Assembly (NCBI GenBank): GCA_016763155.1
Contig: JAESUH010000011.1
Span: 1 to 64,000 of the forward strand
DNA from: Rhizobiaceae bacterium
GTDB lineage: Bacteria; Pseudomonadota; Alphaproteobacteria; Rhizobiales; Rhizobiaceae
DNA: 64,000 nucleotides
Direction: 5' to 3'
Shown here: one piece after another, positions 16,303 to 45,147 of the stretch
Numbering within the stretch: the first letter of the stretch is position 1
Layout: each line of letters begins with the position of its first letter
Notes under the pieces: generated by a model
What the model was told of the DNA's origin: nothing
The model's database searches: none
What the model saw: the letters and a program-made list of their open reading frames with translations, nothing else
Program-made: the position numbers and the translations under genes

Positions 16303-16581
16303 TTTTTAAGACCTTTACGAGTTGGACGTATACACAAGCACAATACCTGCAAAATATGGCAACTATGTCCCGACTGATATTTCCATCAATTTCAGGGGTA
16401 TAACTCGCCAAATTCAATTTTTCTCTGTTTAAATCTAGTTGCCATCTTCCCCTATCGCTTTGACGCAAGTCAAAGCCCCTGCAATTGTTTAATCCTATAA
16501 AATCAGCCGCTACAATTGAACACATCTTGGGATTATTCTAAATTTAGCGGTAGATAGTAAAAGAGCGAGTTCATAGCGATC

Positions 16582-18210
16582 ATGCCAATTGCATCAAAAG
16601 AACACCCAGCAGATCCAGATACTGGATTGTTTAGCCAATTGCGCTGGTCCTATTTACCCCCGTTAATGGTGTATCTGGCCGCAGGAATTTCCGGGCTGAC
16701 GGCCATTGTTGGAACCTTCTTCGTCAAAGACTATTTGGGACTATCCGCCACATTCCTTGCAGGGCTCGCTTTTTGGGCAGGCATTCCATGGGCCCTAAAA
16801 ATGCCCCTTGGCCACTTCGTCGACCTGATCTGGCGCTGGAAATTCATAATGGTCTATGTGGGCGCAGGCCTGATTACGTCTAGCATTTTGATCATGTACG
16901 GCCTGATTAGCCATACAGATCAAATGACTGCATATATGACCATCGAAGCCTGGTTCGTCACCAGCGCCCTGCTAGCACCCATTGGCTATGTGGTGCAAGA
17001 CGTTGTGGCCGACGCCATGACCGTGGAAGCTGTCCCAAACCGTGATGATGAAGGCGTATTGTATTCCGAGCGCCAATCCAAGGCCATGCACACAACCATG
17101 CAAACCCTTGGCAGATTTGCCATTATCGGCGGTTTTGCATTTGTTGCAGCTTTAAACATTTTCATGTTCTCCGGCGTGGAATTCATGACCCAGCCTGAGA
17201 AAATCGAAATTTATTCCAAAATCTATACCGCAGCCCTGATCGTACCCGTGATTTCAGTAGTGGGCGTCATGCTGGGGCAAATGATGTTGCGTAACCGTGC
17301 CAAAACCATGCGCGGCCACGGGATGAAAGAAAAAGAAATCGATTCCCTGCTTTTCCGCACAACCCAGGAAACCAAGCCAAATTGGTGGATATTTGGCGGT
17401 AGCGGCGTGTTTGTTATCTTCACATTGATTATGGGCTTGGGCAATTACGCCTATGGGCAGGAAGTAATTTTCATCGGCTCAATGGCAATTGTATTGTTCC
17501 TCATGTCCCGGCTAATCCGCGAACTGGATCCAAGAGTCGCCCGTGCATTGGTTGGCACAGCCATCATCATTTTCATGTTCCGAGCCACCCCATCACCAGG
17601 TGCTGGTGCCACATGGTTTGAAATTGATGTCCTGGGCTTTGATCAGCAATTCCTGTCTATCCTGAGCCTTTTCACCTCGGGATTAACCCTTATCGGCATG
17701 GTGTTATTGAGGCCCCTAATGGCGACCAAATCAATCGCCTTCATCATCGTGTTTTTGACAATTGCCGCAGGGTTTTTATCCCTGCCAAATATCGGCCTGT
17801 TCTACGGCCTCCATCATTGGACCGAAGCATGGAGTGGCGGCATAATTGATGCGCGTTTCATTGCGATTTTGGATACCGCGATTGAATCGCCATTGGGCCA
17901 AATTGCCATGATCCCGATGTTGGCATGGATCGCCAAAAATGCGCCGGTAAACCTGAAGGCTACTTTCTTTGCTGTAATGGCATCGTTCACCAATCTAGCC
18001 CTTTCGGCCAGTGCATTGTCGACCAAATATCTCAACAAAATTTTCTTTGTTACCCGCGAAGTGAAGGACCGCGTTACCGGTGAAGTTACCACCGAAGCTG
18101 ATTATGGCGAATTAGGCTTGTTATTGATCTCAGCCACCCTAATTATTGTAATACTGCCGCTTGCAGCCGTCATCATCATCCAAAACTCGCGTTTTAAAAC
18201 AACACAATAG
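16582..18210 (+). CDS. MFS/BT1-like multi-TM transporter
   Basis: About 12 predicted TM segments; LAGLAFWAGIPWALKMPLGHFVDLI and GYVVQDVVADAMTVE resemble folate-biopterin (BT1)-type transporters. Confidence 0.65.
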   Translation: MPIASKEHPADPDTGLFSQLRWSYLPPLMVYLAAGISGLTAIVGTFFVKDYLGLSATFLAGLAFWAGIPWALKMPLGHFVDLIWRWKFIMVYVGAGLITSSILIMYGLISHTDQMTAYMTIEAWFVTSALLAPIGYVVQDVVADAMTVEAVPNRDDEGVLYSERQSKAMHTTMQTLGRFAIIGGFAFVAALNIFMFSGVEFMTQPEKIEIYSKIYTAALIVPVISVVGVMLGQMMLRNRAKTMRGHGMKEKEIDSLLFRTTQETKPNWWIFGGSGVFVIFTLIMGLGNYAYGQEVIFIGSMAIVLFLMSRLIRELDPRVARALVGTAIIIFMFRATPSPGAGATWFEIDVLGFDQQFLSILSLFTSGLTLIGMVLLRPLMATKSIAFIIVFLTIAAGFLSLPNIGLFYGLHHWTEAWSGGIIDARFIAILDTAIESPLGQIAMIPMLAWIAKNAPVNLKATFFAVMASFTNLALSASALSTKYLNKIFFVTREVKDRVTGEVTTEADYGELGLLLISATLIIVILPLAAVIIIQNSRFKTTQ

Positions 18211-18217
18211 GGGAATA

Positions 18218-18940
18218 ATGCAGTTAGAGCATGAACATACAGCCGAAGCGATCCGCGAACGGTTGGCAGAGGAACATCGCCCAAATTACCTGCGCGATTG
18301 GGTCTATGGCGGCATAGATGGTGCAATCACAACATTTGCTATTGTGGCGGGCGTGGTTGGCGCTGGCCTATCCGCAAAAGTGATCATTATTCTTGGCCTT
18401 GCCAATTTGATTGCCGATGGCTTTTCCATGGCCGCCAGCGCCTATAGCGGCACAAAAACTGAGGCCGATGAACTGGAACGATTTCGCCAGATCGAGAAAC
18501 GCCATATTGAATTGGTCCCCGAAGGGGAGCGCGAGGAGGTTCGTCAAATTCTCATGGCAAAGGGGCTAAAAGGACATGCCCTTGAAGATGCTGTTGCAGC
18601 AATTACTTCGAATGAAGAAACCTGGATCAATACCATGTTGGTTGAGGAGCATAATTTATCAATAAATCTGCGCTCGCCAATGATGTCCGGCTTGAGCACG
18701 TTCATATCTTTTTTCATATGTGGCGCGATTCCACTCATCCCCTTCCTGCTGGCATTCGACAACGCCATGGAGATTGCCTTAGTTACAACGGCAGCCGCAT
18801 TTTTTCTGATTGGCACAATTAAAAGCAAATGGTCACTTGCCGCATGGTGGAAATCAGGATTTGAAACGCTGGCAATCGGCATCACAGCCTCAGCCATGGC
18901 CTTCGCCATTGGGTATTATGTTGAAAAAATTGTGAGCTGA
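18218..18940 (+). CDS. VIT1/CCC1 transporter family protein
   Basis: RPNYLRDWVYGGIDGAITTFAIVAGVVGAGLSAKVIIILGLANLIADGFSMAASAYSGTKTEAD; ATG 18218 with upstream GGGGA. Confidence 0.92.
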   Translation: MQLEHEHTAEAIRERLAEEHRPNYLRDWVYGGIDGAITTFAIVAGVVGAGLSAKVIIILGLANLIADGFSMAASAYSGTKTEADELERFRQIEKRHIELVPEGEREEVRQILMAKGLKGHALEDAVAAITSNEETWINTMLVEEHNLSINLRSPMMSGLSTFISFFICGAIPLIPFLLAFDNAMEIALVTTAAAFFLIGTIKSKWSLAAWWKSGFETLAIGITASAMAFAIGYYVEKIVS

Positions 18941-18952
18941 TCCTAACTCAAC

Positions 18953-20398
18953 CTATTTGCTGCCCTTTGATATTTCCCGGCCAGATCGCGTGAATTGAAT
19001 TTTCCATGGCTCGTATCGTGGCAATTTCAAATTCACCACATCCGACACAGTTTTTATATCACTTCCACTGAATTTGCGGATGATATCACCCTGCTTCATG
19101 CCAAATTTTGCAGCAGAAGAGCCAGCTCTCACCTCAAGTACAATCACGCCTCCCCGCGTGCTTTCAAGGCCATAATCCAGCGCCAGAGCCGGTGACAGGC
19201 TAGCGATTTTCGCACCACTGAAAGGATGCAAGGTGGGAAGCCATGTATCCTCTCGTGCCGGTTCATTGGGTGGGGAAGCTAAAACTGCCTTAAGCGTCAT
19301 CCGCAGGCCATGACGCAATATCTTAAGTTCAACACTATCCCCCACAAGATGCGAAGCAATGCGTTGATTGATCGAATTGGTGTTACTGATAGGCATCCCG
19401 TCAAGCGTGAGAATAACATCGCCAGTTTTCAAACCAGCTTTTGCAGCCGGTCCATTGGGAAAAACAACTGTAACGGCCAATGCCGTCTTTTCCTCAACAA
19501 GAATTATAGCGGCCAGCGATGGCGGCAATTGTCGCCCGGCAATACCGATCCACGGCCTTAAATAAGGCCGCCGCTTAATTGCACTTTCCACGATGGGGCG
19601 CACCATATTAATCGGCACGGCAAACCCCAACCCCTGAGATCCGCCACTTCTGGAATAAATCGCAGTATTGATGCCAACCAGTTTTCCTTCTGATGAAATC
19701 AACGGTCCGCCAGAATTACCCGGATTAATCGCTGCATCGGTTTGGATAAAAAATCGAAAATCACTGATGCCGACGGTTGCCCTCGAGCGTGCAGAGATAA
19801 TGCCGCTGGTCACCGTTTGACCAATGCCAAAGGGGTTGCCAATAGCAACCACCATGTCGCCAATTCTGAGCTGATCGGAATCACCAAATTCGATGTGGGG
19901 CAGCGTCATGTAACTTGCCGAAATGCGCAAAATAGCGATATCTGTTCGCTTATCCGATAAAACTACCTGCCCTGGAAACACCCTTCCATCACTCAAGGAC
20001 ACCAAAATCCCTTGCGCCGATTGGATGACGTGATGGTTTGTAACAATAATGCCATCGGGTGAAACAATCACCCCCGAACCAAGCGCATTCACAAAGCGCT
20101 CTCGGCCGTAACCAAACAATAATGTGTCCCGGAACAGCCGCCAAAAAGCTGAACCATCCAGTGCCGATGTTGGAGATTTTGAGCGTATAATTTTGCGCGC
20201 ATATATGTTGACGACGGCCGGCAAGGTCTTTTCAACAATCGGCGCAAAAGAGTATGTGATTTGATTACGCGATTGGGGCACGATTGGTTTGGTTTCGCCA
20301 ATGGCGATTATGCAACTCAGCCACAGCCAAATGAATCCACCAAGCGCAGTAACCAAAAGTGGTAAGAAAACCGGTCGTTTTTCCATGCGTCCAATCAT
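18953..20398 (-). CDS. DegP/HtrA-family serine endoprotease with PDZ domains
   Basis: GSGVIVSPDGIIVTNHHVI, DKRTDIAILRI, DAAINPGNSGGPLIS catalytic triad; PDZ GPAAKAGLKTGDVILTLDG. Confidence 0.94.
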   Translation of the reverse strand: MIGRMEKRPVFLPLLVTALGGFIWLWLSCIIAIGETKPIVPQSRNQITYSFAPIVEKTLPAVVNIYARKIIRSKSPTSALDGSAFWRLFRDTLLFGYGRERFVNALGSGVIVSPDGIIVTNHHVIQSAQGILVSLSDGRVFPGQVVLSDKRTDIAILRISASYMTLPHIEFGDSDQLRIGDMVVAIGNPFGIGQTVTSGIISARSRATVGISDFRFFIQTDAAINPGNSGGPLISSEGKLVGINTAIYSRSGGSQGLGFAVPINMVRPIVESAIKRRPYLRPWIGIAGRQLPPSLAAIILVEEKTALAVTVVFPNGPAAKAGLKTGDVILTLDGMPISNTNSINQRIASHLVGDSVELKILRHGLRMTLKAVLASPPNEPAREDTWLPTLHPFSGAKIASLSPALALDYGLESTRGGVIVLEVRAGSSAAKFGMKQGDIIRKFSGSDIKTVSDVVNLKLPRYEPWKIQFTRSGREISKGSK

Positions 20399-20419
20399 TT
20401 GATCTCCTTCACAATCCCC

Positions 20420-21010
20420 CTATCTTGCCAGTGGAAAATATTGCGGCACCAGAATAAGCGCGATAATCAGCCAAAACAAAATGATTGAAAAATATGAGGC
20501 TTTCTTGAAGTGGACGGATAAACGACGGGCAGCTGGAAAGTCATTTCTGTTGAAAAGACTGTATGTTTTACCCCACAATTCATAGGGGTTATCGGCATCG
20601 ATTTGTTCGCACCGTTCAACATAGGAACGTTCACTATTTCCCCGTGGCCTGCGCCGCAGATAGTCCCGATAAAAATCGTAACCAAGCAGTAATTCCAGAA
20701 AAATAATGCGCGGATATAAAGCGACAACTTCCCGGTCAATGCTAAGCACAGCACGATAGGAAAAACCCATTATTGCCGATGCCACAAGTGCGCCCGCAAT
20801 AAGCATGGGGCGGCTGGACATGGTGAGACTTAAATTCAAAATCAGCCAGAAAGAACTAAAAGCAATCGCGCACCCAATCGCAAACCAAACATTATAGGAG
20901 CGAATCAATGCCATTCTCTGCTCATGAATTTCCTTATATTCAGTCACATGGAAATCGGTAGCATCAAGTCTTGCAGCGCTGCGTGGTCTAGTTTCGGTCT
21001 GCTTAGCCAT
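20420..21010 (-). CDS. Hypothetical membrane protein (4 predicted TM)
   Basis: 196-aa uninterrupted ORF downstream-coupled with the degP-like gene on the same strand; hydrophobic segments; no family recognised. Confidence 0.6.
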   Translation of the reverse strand: MAKQTETRPRSAARLDATDFHVTEYKEIHEQRMALIRSYNVWFAIGCAIAFSSFWLILNLSLTMSSRPMLIAGALVASAIMGFSYRAVLSIDREVVALYPRIIFLELLLGYDFYRDYLRRRPRGNSERSYVERCEQIDADNPYELWGKTYSLFNRNDFPAARRLSVHFKKASYFSIILFWLIIALILVPQYFPLAR

Positions 21011-21177
21011 GGTTCACTCACCTTCCTAAATCCAGTTCGTTCCCCGTATTAAATTAGCATATCGGGTAAATGCGGTCAAAACAGCATCGAAATCAGCTTC
21101 AATGCTGACGCGGATTTACAACAAACCCGACTTCTTCATTTCCAAAAAGACCATAGGAAGTTTCTCTTCATCAGGTT

Positions 21178-21191
21178 TTGACCTTGATCAA
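21178..21191 (+). promoter_or_regulatory. FNR/FixK-type box (distal) upstream of hemN
   Basis: TTGACCTTGATCAA fits TTGA-N6-TCAA exactly. Confidence 0.55.
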
Positions 21192-21288
21192 GGAAAAGCC
21201 GGGAAGAATCAGGCAGTTTCACTTTCAATCGAACCGATTTGAGCCCAGTCATTTTGCCTTTGGGAACAATGATCAAACACTCAAAGGA

Positions 21289-21302
21289 TTGATATGGATC
21301 AT
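21289..21302 (+). promoter_or_regulatory. FNR/FixK-type box (proximal) upstream of hemN
   Basis: TTGATATGGATCAT, one mismatch to TTGAT-N4-ATCAA; centred about 85 bp before ATG 21381. Confidence 0.5.
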
Positions 21303-21380
21303 CGCGGCACGATTTTTAACCTGCGATGATCGCAATAGGCTTCATTGAGAAGCAAGCAGTTTACGAGCCCGGACAACAAC

Positions 21381-22733
21381 ATGCATGACACAAAATTGAA
21401 GAAATATTATGACGAGCGGCTTCCTCGATATACCAGCTATCCCACCGCTCCCAATTTTTCCGAGAAAGTAGACCGAAATATCTACGCCGAATGGCTGTCG
21501 GCTCTTGAACCCAAAAAAGAAGTTTCGTTCTATGTGCACGTCCCGTTTTGTCGGTCCATGTGCTGGTATTGCGGTTGTCACACAAAAATATCCAAACGCG
21601 ATGGCCCGATTGAAGAATATCTAGATGCCCTGCACAAAGAAATTGCGCTCACCGCTGAGCTGGTTTCGCCTGAGGTAATCGTCAAGCATTTGCATTTTGG
21701 CGGTGGTACACCAACAATTGTCGGCGATTCTGGTTTTTTCGAGTTGATGCAAACCCTGCGCAAGAATTTTCACTTTGATAAAAAAGCTGATATCGCAGTT
21801 GAAATTGACCCAAGAACCTTTTCTCAGGAAATTGCAGACGTATTCGAGCAGCAAGGCGTAACCCGCGCCAGCTTGGGCGTTCAAAGTTTTGACCCGACCG
21901 TCCAAAAAGCAATAAATCGCATCCAGTCCTTTGAAGAAACCGCGGATACGGTCACCATGTTGCGAGGAGCAAGCGTAAAAAGCATCAATTTTGATCTGAT
22001 TTACGGCCTGCCCCACCAAAGTGAAGTTTCCTGTATTTCGACCACTTTACGGGCTCTGGAGATGGAGCCTGATCGGTTTTCTGTATTTGGTTATGCCCAC
22101 ATCCCTTCCTTCAAGACCCACCAAAACATGATCGATGAATCAGCCCTTGCCGAAGGTCAGCAGCGTTTGGAACAGGCAGAAGCCATTGCCAAAACCCTTG
22201 CGGCCCACGGGTATCGCGCCATTGGACTGGATCATTACGCCCGTCAAGGGGACGAATTGGTGACAGCGCTTGATAATGGGGAATTACACCGGAATTTTCA
22301 GGGTTACACCACTGACACATGCGATACATTGATCGGGCTTGGCGCCTCCTCCATCAGCCAGTTCCCCCAGGGATATACTCAAAATAATGTGGCACTCGGG
22401 CGCTACATTGAAGATATCACCAGCGGCCAACTGGCCACGAGCAAAGGCTATACGCTCACATTTGAAGACCGGATACGGGCCGAAATCATCGAAAAACTGA
22501 TGTGTGAATACAAGGTTGATCTCGAATTAATCTGTTCCACCCACAACGTGTCGATCAATGATTTTCTGCAAAATAATGAGCGACTAGATTCTCTTGTCGA
22601 AGATGGGTTTGTGCGGATTGAACGCGGCCAGATACATGTAAATCCAGATACCCGCTTTATCATCCGCAACGTCGCAGCGGCCTTTGACGCCCATCTTGGC
22701 CAAAGCGGACGAACACATTCAAAAACTGCTTGA
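21381..22733 (+). CDS. hemN: Oxygen-independent coproporphyrinogen III dehydrogenase
   Basis: YTSYPTAPNFSEKV, VHVPFCRSMCWYCGCHT radical SAM motif, HLHFGGGTPTIV. ORF track extends to 21345; ATG 21381 is the likely start. Confidence 0.95.
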   Translation: MHDTKLKKYYDERLPRYTSYPTAPNFSEKVDRNIYAEWLSALEPKKEVSFYVHVPFCRSMCWYCGCHTKISKRDGPIEEYLDALHKEIALTAELVSPEVIVKHLHFGGGTPTIVGDSGFFELMQTLRKNFHFDKKADIAVEIDPRTFSQEIADVFEQQGVTRASLGVQSFDPTVQKAINRIQSFEETADTVTMLRGASVKSINFDLIYGLPHQSEVSCISTTLRALEMEPDRFSVFGYAHIPSFKTHQNMIDESALAEGQQRLEQAEAIAKTLAAHGYRAIGLDHYARQGDELVTALDNGELHRNFQGYTTDTCDTLIGLGASSISQFPQGYTQNNVALGRYIEDITSGQLATSKGYTLTFEDRIRAEIIEKLMCEYKVDLELICSTHNVSINDFLQNNERLDSLVEDGFVRIERGQIHVNPDTRFIIRNVAAAFDAHLGQSGRTHSKTA

Positions 22734-22876
22734 ACTATCTATTTTGGACAAAAGGTAGGATCATAGAAAGAGTTAGCGGATAGATATTTATCTTTTCAAA
22801 GGCTACCCTTTTCAAGCTGGTTTGATATCATCAAAGCCAACATCACAGATCCATATTTTCCCAAAATGGCCTCAAA

Positions 22877-23812
22877 ATGATTTCTGTTCTTGGCGTATTC
22901 AATGCTGATTTAAAATTTCTGATCAATAAATTCCCTCAGCCAGGAGAAACCCTGCACGGCATTTCTTTTGAGGTCCAACCGGGAGGAAAAGGGTTTAATC
23001 AGGCCGTGGCTTGCCGCCGTTCCCAAAATGCCGATGGCCCAGACGTGGTGATGCTGACCCAATTGGGCAAAGATAATTTTGCCGATATGGCAATAGCGGT
23101 CATGCAACAAGAAAGCATAAATGCTTCCCAAATTCTGACAACAGACCTCATGCCAACTGGCACTGCGATGATCATGGTGGAAAAAGAAACCGCGGAAAAC
23201 ATGATCGTCATTGCACCCGGTGCGGCTTCATTGTTAGGTTCAAAGGAAATTCACCAATTTTCCAAGGTCATCGAGAATTCTAAGCTTTTCATGACAAATC
23301 TCGAAGTACCTATGGAAGCTGCATTGGAAGGTCTTCGTCTGGCGCAACAAAACAACGTCAAAACCCTGCTTGATCCAGCCCCCGCATGTGAATTACCTGC
23401 CGAAATATACAGCCATATCGACTACATCACCCCCAATGAAAGCGAAGCAGAAATCCTTGTAGGTTTTGAAGTCAAAACTCTGGAGGATGCCAAGAAAGCA
23501 GGGGAAATTCTTTGTTCTCGCGGCGCGGGCACTTCCATCATCACCATGGGCCCGCTCGGCGTTGTAGCAGTAAGCGACAGCGAGACCATCTACAACCCGG
23601 CATTTACGCTGGACCATGTGGTAGACACAACCGGTGCAGGTGACGCTTTCAATGGTTGCTTTGCCGCATCCATAATTGAGGGCAAAGGTCTCAAAGAGGC
23701 TCTGCGTTTCGCCTCCGCAGGTGCGGCCCTTTGCGTTGGAAAAAATGGTGCAGCAAACGCCATGGCGAAACGAACTGAGATTGAGGAATTTTTACAAAAT
23801 TCCAGTCCATAA
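22877..23812 (+). CDS. PfkB-family carbohydrate kinase (ribokinase-like)
   Basis: PQPGETLHGISFEVQPGGKGFNQAVACRR and DTTGAGDAFNGCFAA ATP/anion-hole motif. Confidence 0.92.
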   Translation: MISVLGVFNADLKFLINKFPQPGETLHGISFEVQPGGKGFNQAVACRRSQNADGPDVVMLTQLGKDNFADMAIAVMQQESINASQILTTDLMPTGTAMIMVEKETAENMIVIAPGAASLLGSKEIHQFSKVIENSKLFMTNLEVPMEAALEGLRLAQQNNVKTLLDPAPACELPAEIYSHIDYITPNESEAEILVGFEVKTLEDAKKAGEILCSRGAGTSIITMGPLGVVAVSDSETIYNPAFTLDHVVDTTGAGDAFNGCFAASIIEGKGLKEALRFASAGAALCVGKNGAANAMAKRTEIEEFLQNSSP

Positions 23813-23861
23813 TTATGGTTCAATCAGCTGTCGATATTGGCAGGTAACATAGATCAGCGCA

Positions 23862-25481
23862 TCACTCTTTTGGCCGCCATTGTTCGCGAGCTATTTTAAG
23901 CACATCGGGCGTATCCACATCAAAACTTGCAGCCTCACCCAGTTCCACTTCAACAACTTTTTCCTGATTCTGCCCAATCAGATGGCGAGCACCCACATCT
24001 CCGCTAATCGCGCGCAAGGAAGGGAAAAAGGCCTTTGGCCAAAGTGTCGGATTACCGCGTTTCCCATTATGGGTAGCCATAATTATTGAGCCCGGGCTGG
24101 CAGCTTTCGCGGCTTCAAGCAATTGATCAATCATTGAAACTGTAATTCCAGGCATATCGCCAAGCAACACAATTGCCTGATCGGCATCGCCCTCAATCGC
24201 TGAAATACCTGCGGCAAGAGAAGTAGATAGGCCTTCTTCATATTTTGGATTATGAGCGAAACGCAAATCCAAGTCTTCCAGCTCTTCACGCACCAAATTG
24301 CTCTCATGGCCACTCACCACAACCACGTCAAGTTCCTTGTTTGCAGCGATACTAGCAGCTTCCGCCACATAGCGTACCAGTGCCTTATCCTTGAGCTTTG
24401 CCAGCAATTTATTCTGTGGCCCCATACGCGATGATTGCCCAGCAGCAAGAATGATCGCCGCTGTTTTGGGTGCAGTTTCAACAGGCTTTTCGCGAGGACG
24501 CGGACGCGACCCAATTTCCATCAAAAGACCACCTACCCCCATACCAACAATATCCGCACTGCTAACCGGCATCCCGGCCAGAACGCGCTGTAAAATCCAG
24601 TCAAATCCATTTTCCGCCGGGCTTCTGGAGCATCCCGGCGCACCGATCACTGGCGTTTCGCCAAGTTCGCCTAACAACAGCAGATTGCCCGGATCAACCG
24701 GCATCCCAAAACGGGTAATTGCGCCGCCAGCCTCAACCAAAGCGCTCGGAATAACATCACCGATATCCGATATCGCAGACGCACCAAACAAAATGATGAG
24801 ATCGCTTTCATCACAAATATCATCTAATGCCTGTTTTACTGCTGCACTTTCATGGGGCACCCGAATTTCGCGGGAAATCGTCGACCCGCTCAACAACAAT
24901 CTTTGCTCCAGCACCCGAATGGTTTTATCCATTACTGATGGTTTCAAAGATGGTAATTGAGTTGCGATCACTCCTACCTTTAAAGCCTGATAGGTGGATA
25001 TTTTTACAACATTTTCATCCAACGCATCCAGCGCAAGATCAAGCGCTGTACTTTTCACGCCATAGGGAATGATCTTGATGGTAGCGACCATGCGCCCGGA
25101 ATTCACCTCGGCATAATCTTCCAAAGTCGCGATGGTAATCCCCGGATCAATCTGGTTAACCCGGTCGATTGCCCCCTTATCCACCCGTAGCAAACCATTT
25201 TTCGTGGCAAAAACATTTACCCGCCCGGTCGAGGCTGCATCCAGTCGCAAACCAGTATGGAGTAATTGTTCCGCCAGCCGACTTGCTGCCTCATCCTCAC
25301 CAATTTCGTCTTCGGATAAGAGAGCGACAGTGACCTGATCAATCCCCGATTGGACAAGGTTTTCAATATCCTTAGGCGTGAGGGGCAGCCCTTTTTTTAA
25401 ACGAACTCCGCTCGCCAATTTCAAACTGTGAGCAAGGATTGCTCCTTCAGCCTGATTGACGGGAATGGGTCCAAATTTCAT
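23862..25481 (-). CDS. Molybdopterin-binding (MoeA/MogA-like) + MobA-like nucleotidyltransferase fusion
   Basis: N-term MKFGPIPVNQAEGAILAHSLKL; mid LIILFGASAISDIGDVIPSALVEAGG; C-term AAIILAAGQSSRMGPQNKLLAKLKDKALV NTP-transferase motif. Confidence 0.87.
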   Translation of the reverse strand: MKFGPIPVNQAEGAILAHSLKLASGVRLKKGLPLTPKDIENLVQSGIDQVTVALLSEDEIGEDEAASRLAEQLLHTGLRLDAASTGRVNVFATKNGLLRVDKGAIDRVNQIDPGITIATLEDYAEVNSGRMVATIKIIPYGVKSTALDLALDALDENVVKISTYQALKVGVIATQLPSLKPSVMDKTIRVLEQRLLLSGSTISREIRVPHESAAVKQALDDICDESDLIILFGASAISDIGDVIPSALVEAGGAITRFGMPVDPGNLLLLGELGETPVIGAPGCSRSPAENGFDWILQRVLAGMPVSSADIVGMGVGGLLMEIGSRPRPREKPVETAPKTAAIILAAGQSSRMGPQNKLLAKLKDKALVRYVAEAASIAANKELDVVVVSGHESNLVREELEDLDLRFAHNPKYEEGLSTSLAAGISAIEGDADQAIVLLGDMPGITVSMIDQLLEAAKAASPGSIIMATHNGKRGNPTLWPKAFFPSLRAISGDVGARHLIGQNQEKVVEVELGEAASFDVDTPDVLKIAREQWRPKE

Positions 25482-42502: not shown

Positions 42503-43228
42503 TTACTTTTCATCCCCAAGGGGAGATAGCAGACCCAAATCTTCAAGATCTTCCGGTGTGAACGGATCCTCATCTTCCTGCAATTCGTCTGAATCGTAGG
42601 GAACAGGAACGGAAAACTTCGCCGGTAATTGCGATTGCAATAATCCAGAGCCTCGTAGCTCATCTAGTCCAGGCAAATCTCTTAATTCAGATAATGCAAA
42701 ATGATCCAGAAATTCATCGGTCGTGCCATAGGTGATTGGACGCCCGGGGGTACGCCTGCGGCCACGCATTTTGACCCAACCGGTTTCCATCAATACATCC
42801 AAGGTGCCTTTGGAGGTGGAAACCCCGCGAATATCTTCAAGCTCAGCCCGCGTGGTAGGTTGGTGATAAGCGATCGTCGCCAGAACTTCCAAAGCCGCAC
42901 GTGAAAGTTTTTTGATTGCTACAGCTTCACGCTGCAACAAAAAGCTCAAATCATCAGCAGTGCGGAATGCCCAATTATTGCCGATCTTGACCAGATTAAC
43001 GCCACGATTTGCATAGAGTTGTTGCAAATCCGCCATCAATTCATCCAGAGCCACATCTTCGGGCAAGCGTTCACTCAGCGCCCGCTCTGACACTGGTTCC
43101 GCAGAAGCAAACACGATTGCTTCCACCATGCGCAAATGCTCATGACGCGGCTTGATTGCCATCTCATCGCCTCCAGCAGGCCCAAAAGTCAAAATTTTTG
43201 CATCGTTCTGCTTCATATTCTCGCTCAT
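42503..43228 (-). CDS. scpB: Segregation and condensation protein B
   Basis: RMVEAIVFASAEPVSERALSERLPEDVAL, RAALEVLATIAYHQPTTRAELEDIRGVSTSKGTLDVLMETGWVKMRGRRRTPGRPITYGTTDEFLDHF. Confidence 0.96.
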   Translation of the reverse strand: MSENMKQNDAKILTFGPAGGDEMAIKPRHEHLRMVEAIVFASAEPVSERALSERLPEDVALDELMADLQQLYANRGVNLVKIGNNWAFRTADDLSFLLQREAVAIKKLSRAALEVLATIAYHQPTTRAELEDIRGVSTSKGTLDVLMETGWVKMRGRRRTPGRPITYGTTDEFLDHFALSELRDLPGLDELRGSGLLQSQLPAKFSVPVPYDSDELQEDEDPFTPEDLEDLGLLSPLGDEK

Positions 43229-43236
43229 TTTAGTTC

Positions 43237-44112
43237 CTATTCCACAGCCCGATTATCGGTTTTCGATTGCGCCGTTCGAATATATAATGGTGCAAAAGCT
43301 TCCTCTTGCCGCATGAGCAACGTCCCTTCCCGCACCAGTTCTAGCGACGCAGCAAAAGAACTGGCAATTGCGCTGATACGCATTTCCGGCGTGGGAATAT
43401 ATTTTAGCAAAAACACATCAAGTGGTGTCCAGTTGGACAATTCCCCGACCAAACGTGTGAGTATTTCGCGGGCATCAGATAGTGACCATACGTCCCGTTT
43501 GGCGATAGTAACCGTTGAAACACTCTGGCGTTGACGCTGTGCGGCATAGGCAGTCAGCAAGTCATAGAGCGACGCCTTATATTCGCTGCGCCGGTCAATC
43601 GCGATGGGTTCCGGATTGCCTCTGGCAAAGAAGTCCTACCCCAGGCGGTTTCGATTGATGAGCTTATTGCCAGCCTCACGCATGGCTTCAAGTCGCTGCA
43701 AGCGGAAGGCAAGCAATGCGGCCATTTCTTCGCCGCTCAGCTCCTCGTCATCATCCTCTTCATTGGGCAATAACAGACGGGATTTAAGATAAGCCAGCCA
43801 AGCCGCCATTACCAGATAATCAGCTGCAAGTTCAATTCGCAGCATTCTCAATTCTTCAATAAAGACCAGATATTGCTCGGCCAGCGCCAAAATTGAAATT
43901 TTGGCCAGGTCAACTTTTTGACGGCGTGATAGCTCCAGCAAAAGACCAAGCGGCCCTTCAAATCCTTCCACATCCACATTCATCTCAGGGACGGGAGTAC
44001 GGGACAAGTCGCCTTCTACTGCCGCTTGATCATGGTTTTCACCATCCCACAAATCGGCAGTTACAGCTTCTTGCTGTTCGTTCTTAGTATTGTTGTCACC
44101 TGTATCAGTCAC
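43237..44112 (-). pseudogene. scpA: Segregation and condensation protein A, interrupted by in-frame TAG at 43636-43638
   Basis: 44112-43636: VDVEGFEGPLGLLLELSRRQKVDLAKISILALAEQYLVFIEELRMLRIELAADYLVMAAWLAYLKSRLLLP...EAGNKLINRNRLG*; continues in the same frame DFFARGNPEPIAIDRRSEYKASLYDLLTAYAAQRQRQSVSTVTIAKRDVWSLSDAREILTRLV... to 43237. Confidence 0.85.
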
Positions 44113-44130: not shown

Positions 44131-45147
44131 TTAAACACCAACCGCAAACATGCCCTCATATTCCGCACGTAATTCGGCGATATCGCATTTTTGTGGCTCT
44201 ACCAACAGCTTTTCCGCTGCCTGCGCCCGAACCAGTGCTTGTCCTTCAAGTTCCGGGCAATGGGCAGCAATGATGGACATTTCCTCCATCACTCCATTGC
44301 AATGAAGCACACAATCACAACCTGCCGCAAAAGCCTTTTGTGTTCTGTCAGAGAAATCCCCAGAAAGCGCATGCATAGAAAGATCATCGCTCATAATCAG
44401 CCCGTCAAACCCGATAAATCCACGAATTACATCGTTGATTATCTTTTTTGATGTGGTCGCTGGAGCTTCAGCATCCAACTGCGAATAAACCACATGTGCA
44501 GTCATCGCCATGGGCAGATCATTCAAACCGACAAATGCGGCAAAATCCGTTGCTTCCAATTCAGCCAAATCACTATCGACGACCGGCAAATCCTTGTGAC
44601 TGTCTGCCCCTGCCCGGCCATGACCCGGAATATGCTTGATTACAGGCAATACGCCCCCAGCCAGCAGGCCTTCGCTTGCAGAACGTCCCATGGCCACAAC
44701 GGTTTCAACATCATACCCATAGGCCCTATCGCCGATCACATCATGAGCACCTTTAACAGGCACATCCAATACCGGCAGGCAGTCGACATTAAGCCCCACA
44801 TCGATCAAATCTGCAGCCATCAACCGCGATTGCAACCATGCAGCCCGCAGTCCTGTTGCTTTGTCCTGTCGATAAAGATCACCAAGTATTTGGCCCGAAT
44901 GATAATCATGCCAATGGGGAGGTTTCAGGCGGCGCACCCGCCCACCTTCTTGGTCAACCAGAATAGGAACATTCTCACGCCCAACGCATTCGCGCATTTC
45001 GCTACACAAACCACGAAGTTGATCCGGGTTATCGATATTTCTTGCAAATACGATAAAACCCCAAGGCAGCTCATCACGAAAAAACTGTTTTTCGTCCTGC
45101 GTCAGTTCAAGACCGGAACAACCGGCAATTAATGCTTTGATTCCCAT
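44131..45147 (-). CDS. nagZ: Beta-N-acetylhexosaminidase
   Basis: VPILVDQEGGRVRRLKPPHW, PVIKHIPGHGRAGADSHKDLPVVD, GFIGFDGLIMSDDLSMHALSGD. Confidence 0.97.
   Translation of the reverse strand: MGIKALIAGCSGLELTQDEKQFFRDELPWGFIVFARNIDNPDQLRGLCSEMRECVGRENVPILVDQEGGRVRRLKPPHWHDYHSGQILGDLYRQDKATGLRAAWLQSRLMAADLIDVGLNVDCLPVLDVPVKGAHDVIGDRAYGYDVETVVAMGRSASEGLLAGGVLPVIKHIPGHGRAGADSHKDLPVVDSDLAELEATDFAAFVGLNDLPMAMTAHVVYSQLDAEAPATTSKKIINDVIRGFIGFDGLIMSDDLSMHALSGDFSDRTQKAFAAGCDCVLHCNGVMEEMSIIAAHCPELEGQALVRAQAAEKLLVEPQKCDIAELRAEYEGMFAVGV

Follow-up and report, generated by a model that had tools for sequence, protein, structure and literature searches.

The scpA gene, encoding the kleisin subunit of the SMC-ScpAB complex, was interrupted by an in-frame TAG codon in the DNA window analysed here (64,000 nucleotides from a Rhizobiaceae bacterium), and this codon was, on balance, probably an isolated lesion of the draft consensus, that is, a sequencing, assembly or strain-mosaic error. 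The gene comprised 291 codons (43237..44112, minus strand), and its translation placed the TAG at codon 159 (43636..43638, minus strand; cta on the plus strand), between the residues NRNRLG and DFFARGNPE. It was the single internal stop, and the frame was clean on either side, as the first-pass annotation had described. The bases following the internal TAG were GAC, and the terminal stop of the gene was likewise TAG. A whole-genome search of the source assembly (3.99 Mb in 256 contigs, 85% complete, 4.4% contamination) recovered only this scpA with its one TAG, and a second copy was not found. If the consensus is in error, the cell would make full-length ScpA, with codon 159 specifying an ordinary residue. 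We infer that the consensus, rather than the cell, is wrong from an otherwise intact gene, the arginine of its relatives and the failure to find recoding machinery or signals.

The interrupted frame was not a chance open reading frame, judging from the alignments, because both halves matched the intact ScpA of relatives at high identity. Furthermore, the gene matched PF02616 (SMC_ScpA) and adjoined scpB in operon position. The N-terminal region of ScpA binds the SMC neck, the middle binds the ScpB dimer, and the C-terminal region binds the SMC cap (PMC4255302). The two SMC-binding parts were both encoded in frame, with the TAG of the consensus between them. According to the Pfam and PDB alignments and the published roles (PMC4255302), the 158 codons before the stop (43639..44112, minus strand) covered the SMC-neck-binding N-terminal region and the first half of the ScpB-binding middle. 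This portion matched PF02616 with E = 4.6e-11 in the Pfam search and aligned to the PDB chains 3zgx_C, 3w6j_A and 4i98_A. The 132 codons after the stop (43240..43635, minus strand) formed an open, conserved frame that held the remaining middle and the C-terminal SMC-cap-binding domain. The flanking genes were intact and stop-free, in agreement with the first-pass annotation. They were scpB (42503..43228, minus strand; PF04079, E = 1.3e-47; 87% identity to NORP147) and a nagZ-like family 3 glycoside hydrolase gene (44131..45147, minus strand; PF00933, E = 8e-48). The smc gene was also intact, on contig C33 of the same assembly. The SMC-ScpAB complex is apparently under selection because smc, scpB and nagZ were all intact, and their integrity argues for a consensus error.

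The residue at codon 159 was compared across 103 distinct homologs, the copy in the window being excluded. Arginine occupied this position in 96 homologs, glutamine in three, and valine, leucine or isoleucine in four; the arginine was nearly always encoded by CGN. The nearest public relatives were NORP147, which belongs to the same genus as the window organism and is, according to PMC9426424, a Rhizobiaceae assembly of the North Pond subseafloor aquifer, and NORP69. The ScpA proteins of these relatives (Rhizobiaceae/Hyphomicrobiales, PF02616) contained the same regions as the window ScpA, with 78-79% amino acid identity over the gene (78% for NORP147), and the nagZ-scpA-scpB gene order was common to NORP147 and the window. 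Their scpA genes were uninterrupted, carrying CGT (NORP147) and CGG (NORP69) where the window has TAG. Every arginine codon is at least two base changes away from TAG, and GGC CGG in NORP69 differs from GGG TAG in the window at three adjacent bases, including the glycine codon. These multiple changes favour a consensus error, and they count against a genuine nonsense mutation of very recent date in the strain or population, which would cut ScpA after 158 residues and which we consider a serious but clearly less probable explanation. A single-base origin from CAG or AGG had been proposed; CAG (glutamine) is indeed one change from TAG, whereas AGG is two changes away. A two-step mutation via glutamine, the residue carried by those three homologs, is quite possible, and it weighs against the consensus error and for the nonsense mutation.

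The TAG codon may, as a bare possibility, reflect a compensating pair of one-base errors in G runs, by which GGT AGG GAC was read as GGG TAG GAC. Such a pair is in keeping with the remaining lesions of the assembly, all of them one-base losses from runs of G or C, but it is a strained assumption that two errors arose in such close proximity. An order-wide search (398 genomes, 363 matches) revealed no internal stop in any other scpA among the matches listed, which again supports a consensus error and speaks against a real nonsense mutation. The TGA reported for the scpA of NORP147 was rejected as a second interrupted gene; it was the end of the gene itself, which the match had overrun. A TGA was also reported for the scpA of genome G041, where the match reached query residue 242, near the gene end in relatives.

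The age of the lesion was evaluated from the columns downstream of the stop. Of these columns, 35 were conserved in at least 90% of the other homologs, and none of the 35 was changed in the window, a result shared by NORP69 and NORP147. With zero changes, the neutral divergence since any loss of function was at most about 0.04 substitutions per site (95% bound), a value that treats the 35 columns as free to change once function was lost. The synonymous divergence to NORP69 and NORP147 was approximately 1-1.5 for the half before the stop, a rough value near saturation. The lesion is thus either very young or absent from the organism, because all 35 strongly conserved positions were kept. The earlier suggestion that the decay would be recent, if real, was supported accordingly. 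The conservation on both sides of the stop is readily accommodated by a consensus error, whereas a nonsense mutation would have to be a very young event.

The background of lesions was explored by comparing 0.79 Mb sampled from the window genome with 0.92 Mb of NORP147, which covered 28,556 codons in 84 overlapping genes. Two true lesions were recovered. One was the scpA TAG; the other was the deletion of a single base in a MoeB/ThiF-like gene (contig C107, approximately 53,490, minus strand), in which one G was missing relative to NORP147 and identity was maintained beyond. The other stop calls were read as shadow or upstream frames. In the reverse control, no true lesion was found in the 89 genes of NORP147 that were compared. 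A whole-genome search with PF00005 and PF00528 (206 matches) gave one internal stop and one frameshift. The frameshift was in phnK (contig C22, approximately 27,030), where one C had apparently been lost from a C run and the phosphonate operon was otherwise intact. The internal stop belonged to a livF-like remnant at a contig end (C92, bases 1-690), which was decayed and contained several stops; its TAG was therefore rejected as a recoding event.

Hence, scpA was not alone: several lesions of this assembly were apparently fresh. Explanations specific to scpA are weakened accordingly, and an assembly or sequence error, or else a general background of recent lesions, is favoured. The MoeB/ThiF-like and phnK lesions, both single-base changes with intact flanks, support an error in the consensus; together with the livF remnant, they can also be cited for real mutation. 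Two points run against an error: the true genes of the scpA contig (72.6 kb, 55 genes) contained no further internal stop and no frameshift in the pairwise comparison with NORP147, so the error rate looks low, and the other lesions differed in kind, being one-base deletions. The window scpA resembles the sporadic nonsense and frameshift lesions of draft genomes in being a single isolated lesion with intact flanks and companions in the same assembly, and it differs from the interrupted genes compared in that the change is a nonsense codon and not a frameshift. The case is ordinary. A literature search for papers on internal stops in assemblies of this type gave no results. As between assembly error and recent nonsense mutation, both of which the first-pass annotation had listed, our analysis leans to error.

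Were the nonsense mutation real, the truncated ScpA of 158 residues would lack half of the middle part that binds ScpB, together with the C-terminal cap-binding domain, and should be inactive; the SMC ring would be unable to close, and the complex would be inactive. Several bacteria survive SMC deletion, and the smc deletion of Caulobacter results in temperature-sensitive growth rather than simple lethality (PMC4255302). A truncated kleisin in the organism is thus conceivable but costly. Moreover, TAG serves as an ordinary terminator here, which suits the nonsense mutation.

Amber suppression or programmed readthrough, in which UAG would be read as an amino acid and some full-length ScpA made, was also raised in the first-pass annotation and found no support here; we regard it as quite improbable. 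The frame past the stop was open and conserved, as this explanation requires. Nevertheless, TAG terminated 16 of the 55 genes on the contig, scpA among them, so UAG terminates here and has not been dropped as a terminator; the remaining contig genes had no internal TAG. No CUA anticodon, the mark of the suppressor tRNA that the first-pass annotation proposed to look for, was present among 28 tRNA matches, a set that is incomplete (Tyr, Trp and His tRNAs were unseen) and to that extent leaves room for suppression. The tRNA-Leu of the window has the anticodon UAG, reads CUA codons and is not a suppressor. The best PylS match scored 25.8 bits against the curated cut-off of 178, which argues against pyrrolysine insertion. 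The hallmarks of programmed readthrough, a conserved stop and a stimulatory context or structure, were not observed: relatives carried arginine at this position, the site had no Rfam match, and the fold z was about 0, indicating no unusual structure. The gene for release factor 1 (prfA) was not found in the 85% complete assembly, which could be taken to favour suppression, but the whole ptsP-prfA-prmC locus was missing; ptsP and prmC, the neighbours of prfA in genome G002, had no ortholog in the window assembly either. The absence of this locus, and with it the apparent loss of release factor 1, is most likely an assembly gap, judging from gene content. A combined state, in which the stop is real and low-level readthrough or suppression gives two kleisin forms, seems slightly less probable still.

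The least probable explanation, with only a very slight chance, is a split kleisin, in which a second polypeptide would begin after the stop and act together with the first. The C-terminal half was intact, as such an arrangement would need, but close after the stop no in-frame start had a well-placed Shine-Dalgarno sequence. The first in-frame start was a TTG approximately 75 bases past the stop, with AAGG approximately 14 bases ahead of it, and the first ATG would leave approximately 48 codons. Furthermore, two pieces could not tether both SMC heads unless they bound each other, and no gene split at this place was seen among the relatives' matches listed. The split kleisin proposed in the first-pass annotation therefore gained no support, for want of a credible restart or a precedent among those matches.

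The case bears mainly on quality control: neither recoding nor loss of condensin should be read from an isolated internal stop in a draft consensus. A stop that was both real and fixed would make the organism an instance of an alphaproteobacterium that lives without functional SMC-ScpAB.

Two further features of the contig were observed. From 61694 to the right end of the window, an open reading frame that ran on to contig position 66709 encoded an internally repetitive protein of 1671 residues, which gave only sub-threshold apolipoprotein-like coiled-coil matches. A block of approximately 7.6 kb (16305-23900), located downstream of the tRNA-Leu and trigger factor genes, carried genes for a BT1-family transporter, a trypsin/PDZ protease, a radical-SAM protein (HemN-like) and a PfkB kinase. 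Nothing equivalent to this block lay at the corresponding position in NORP147, and the block is a candidate for an insertion or deletion that distinguishes the window species from NORP147.
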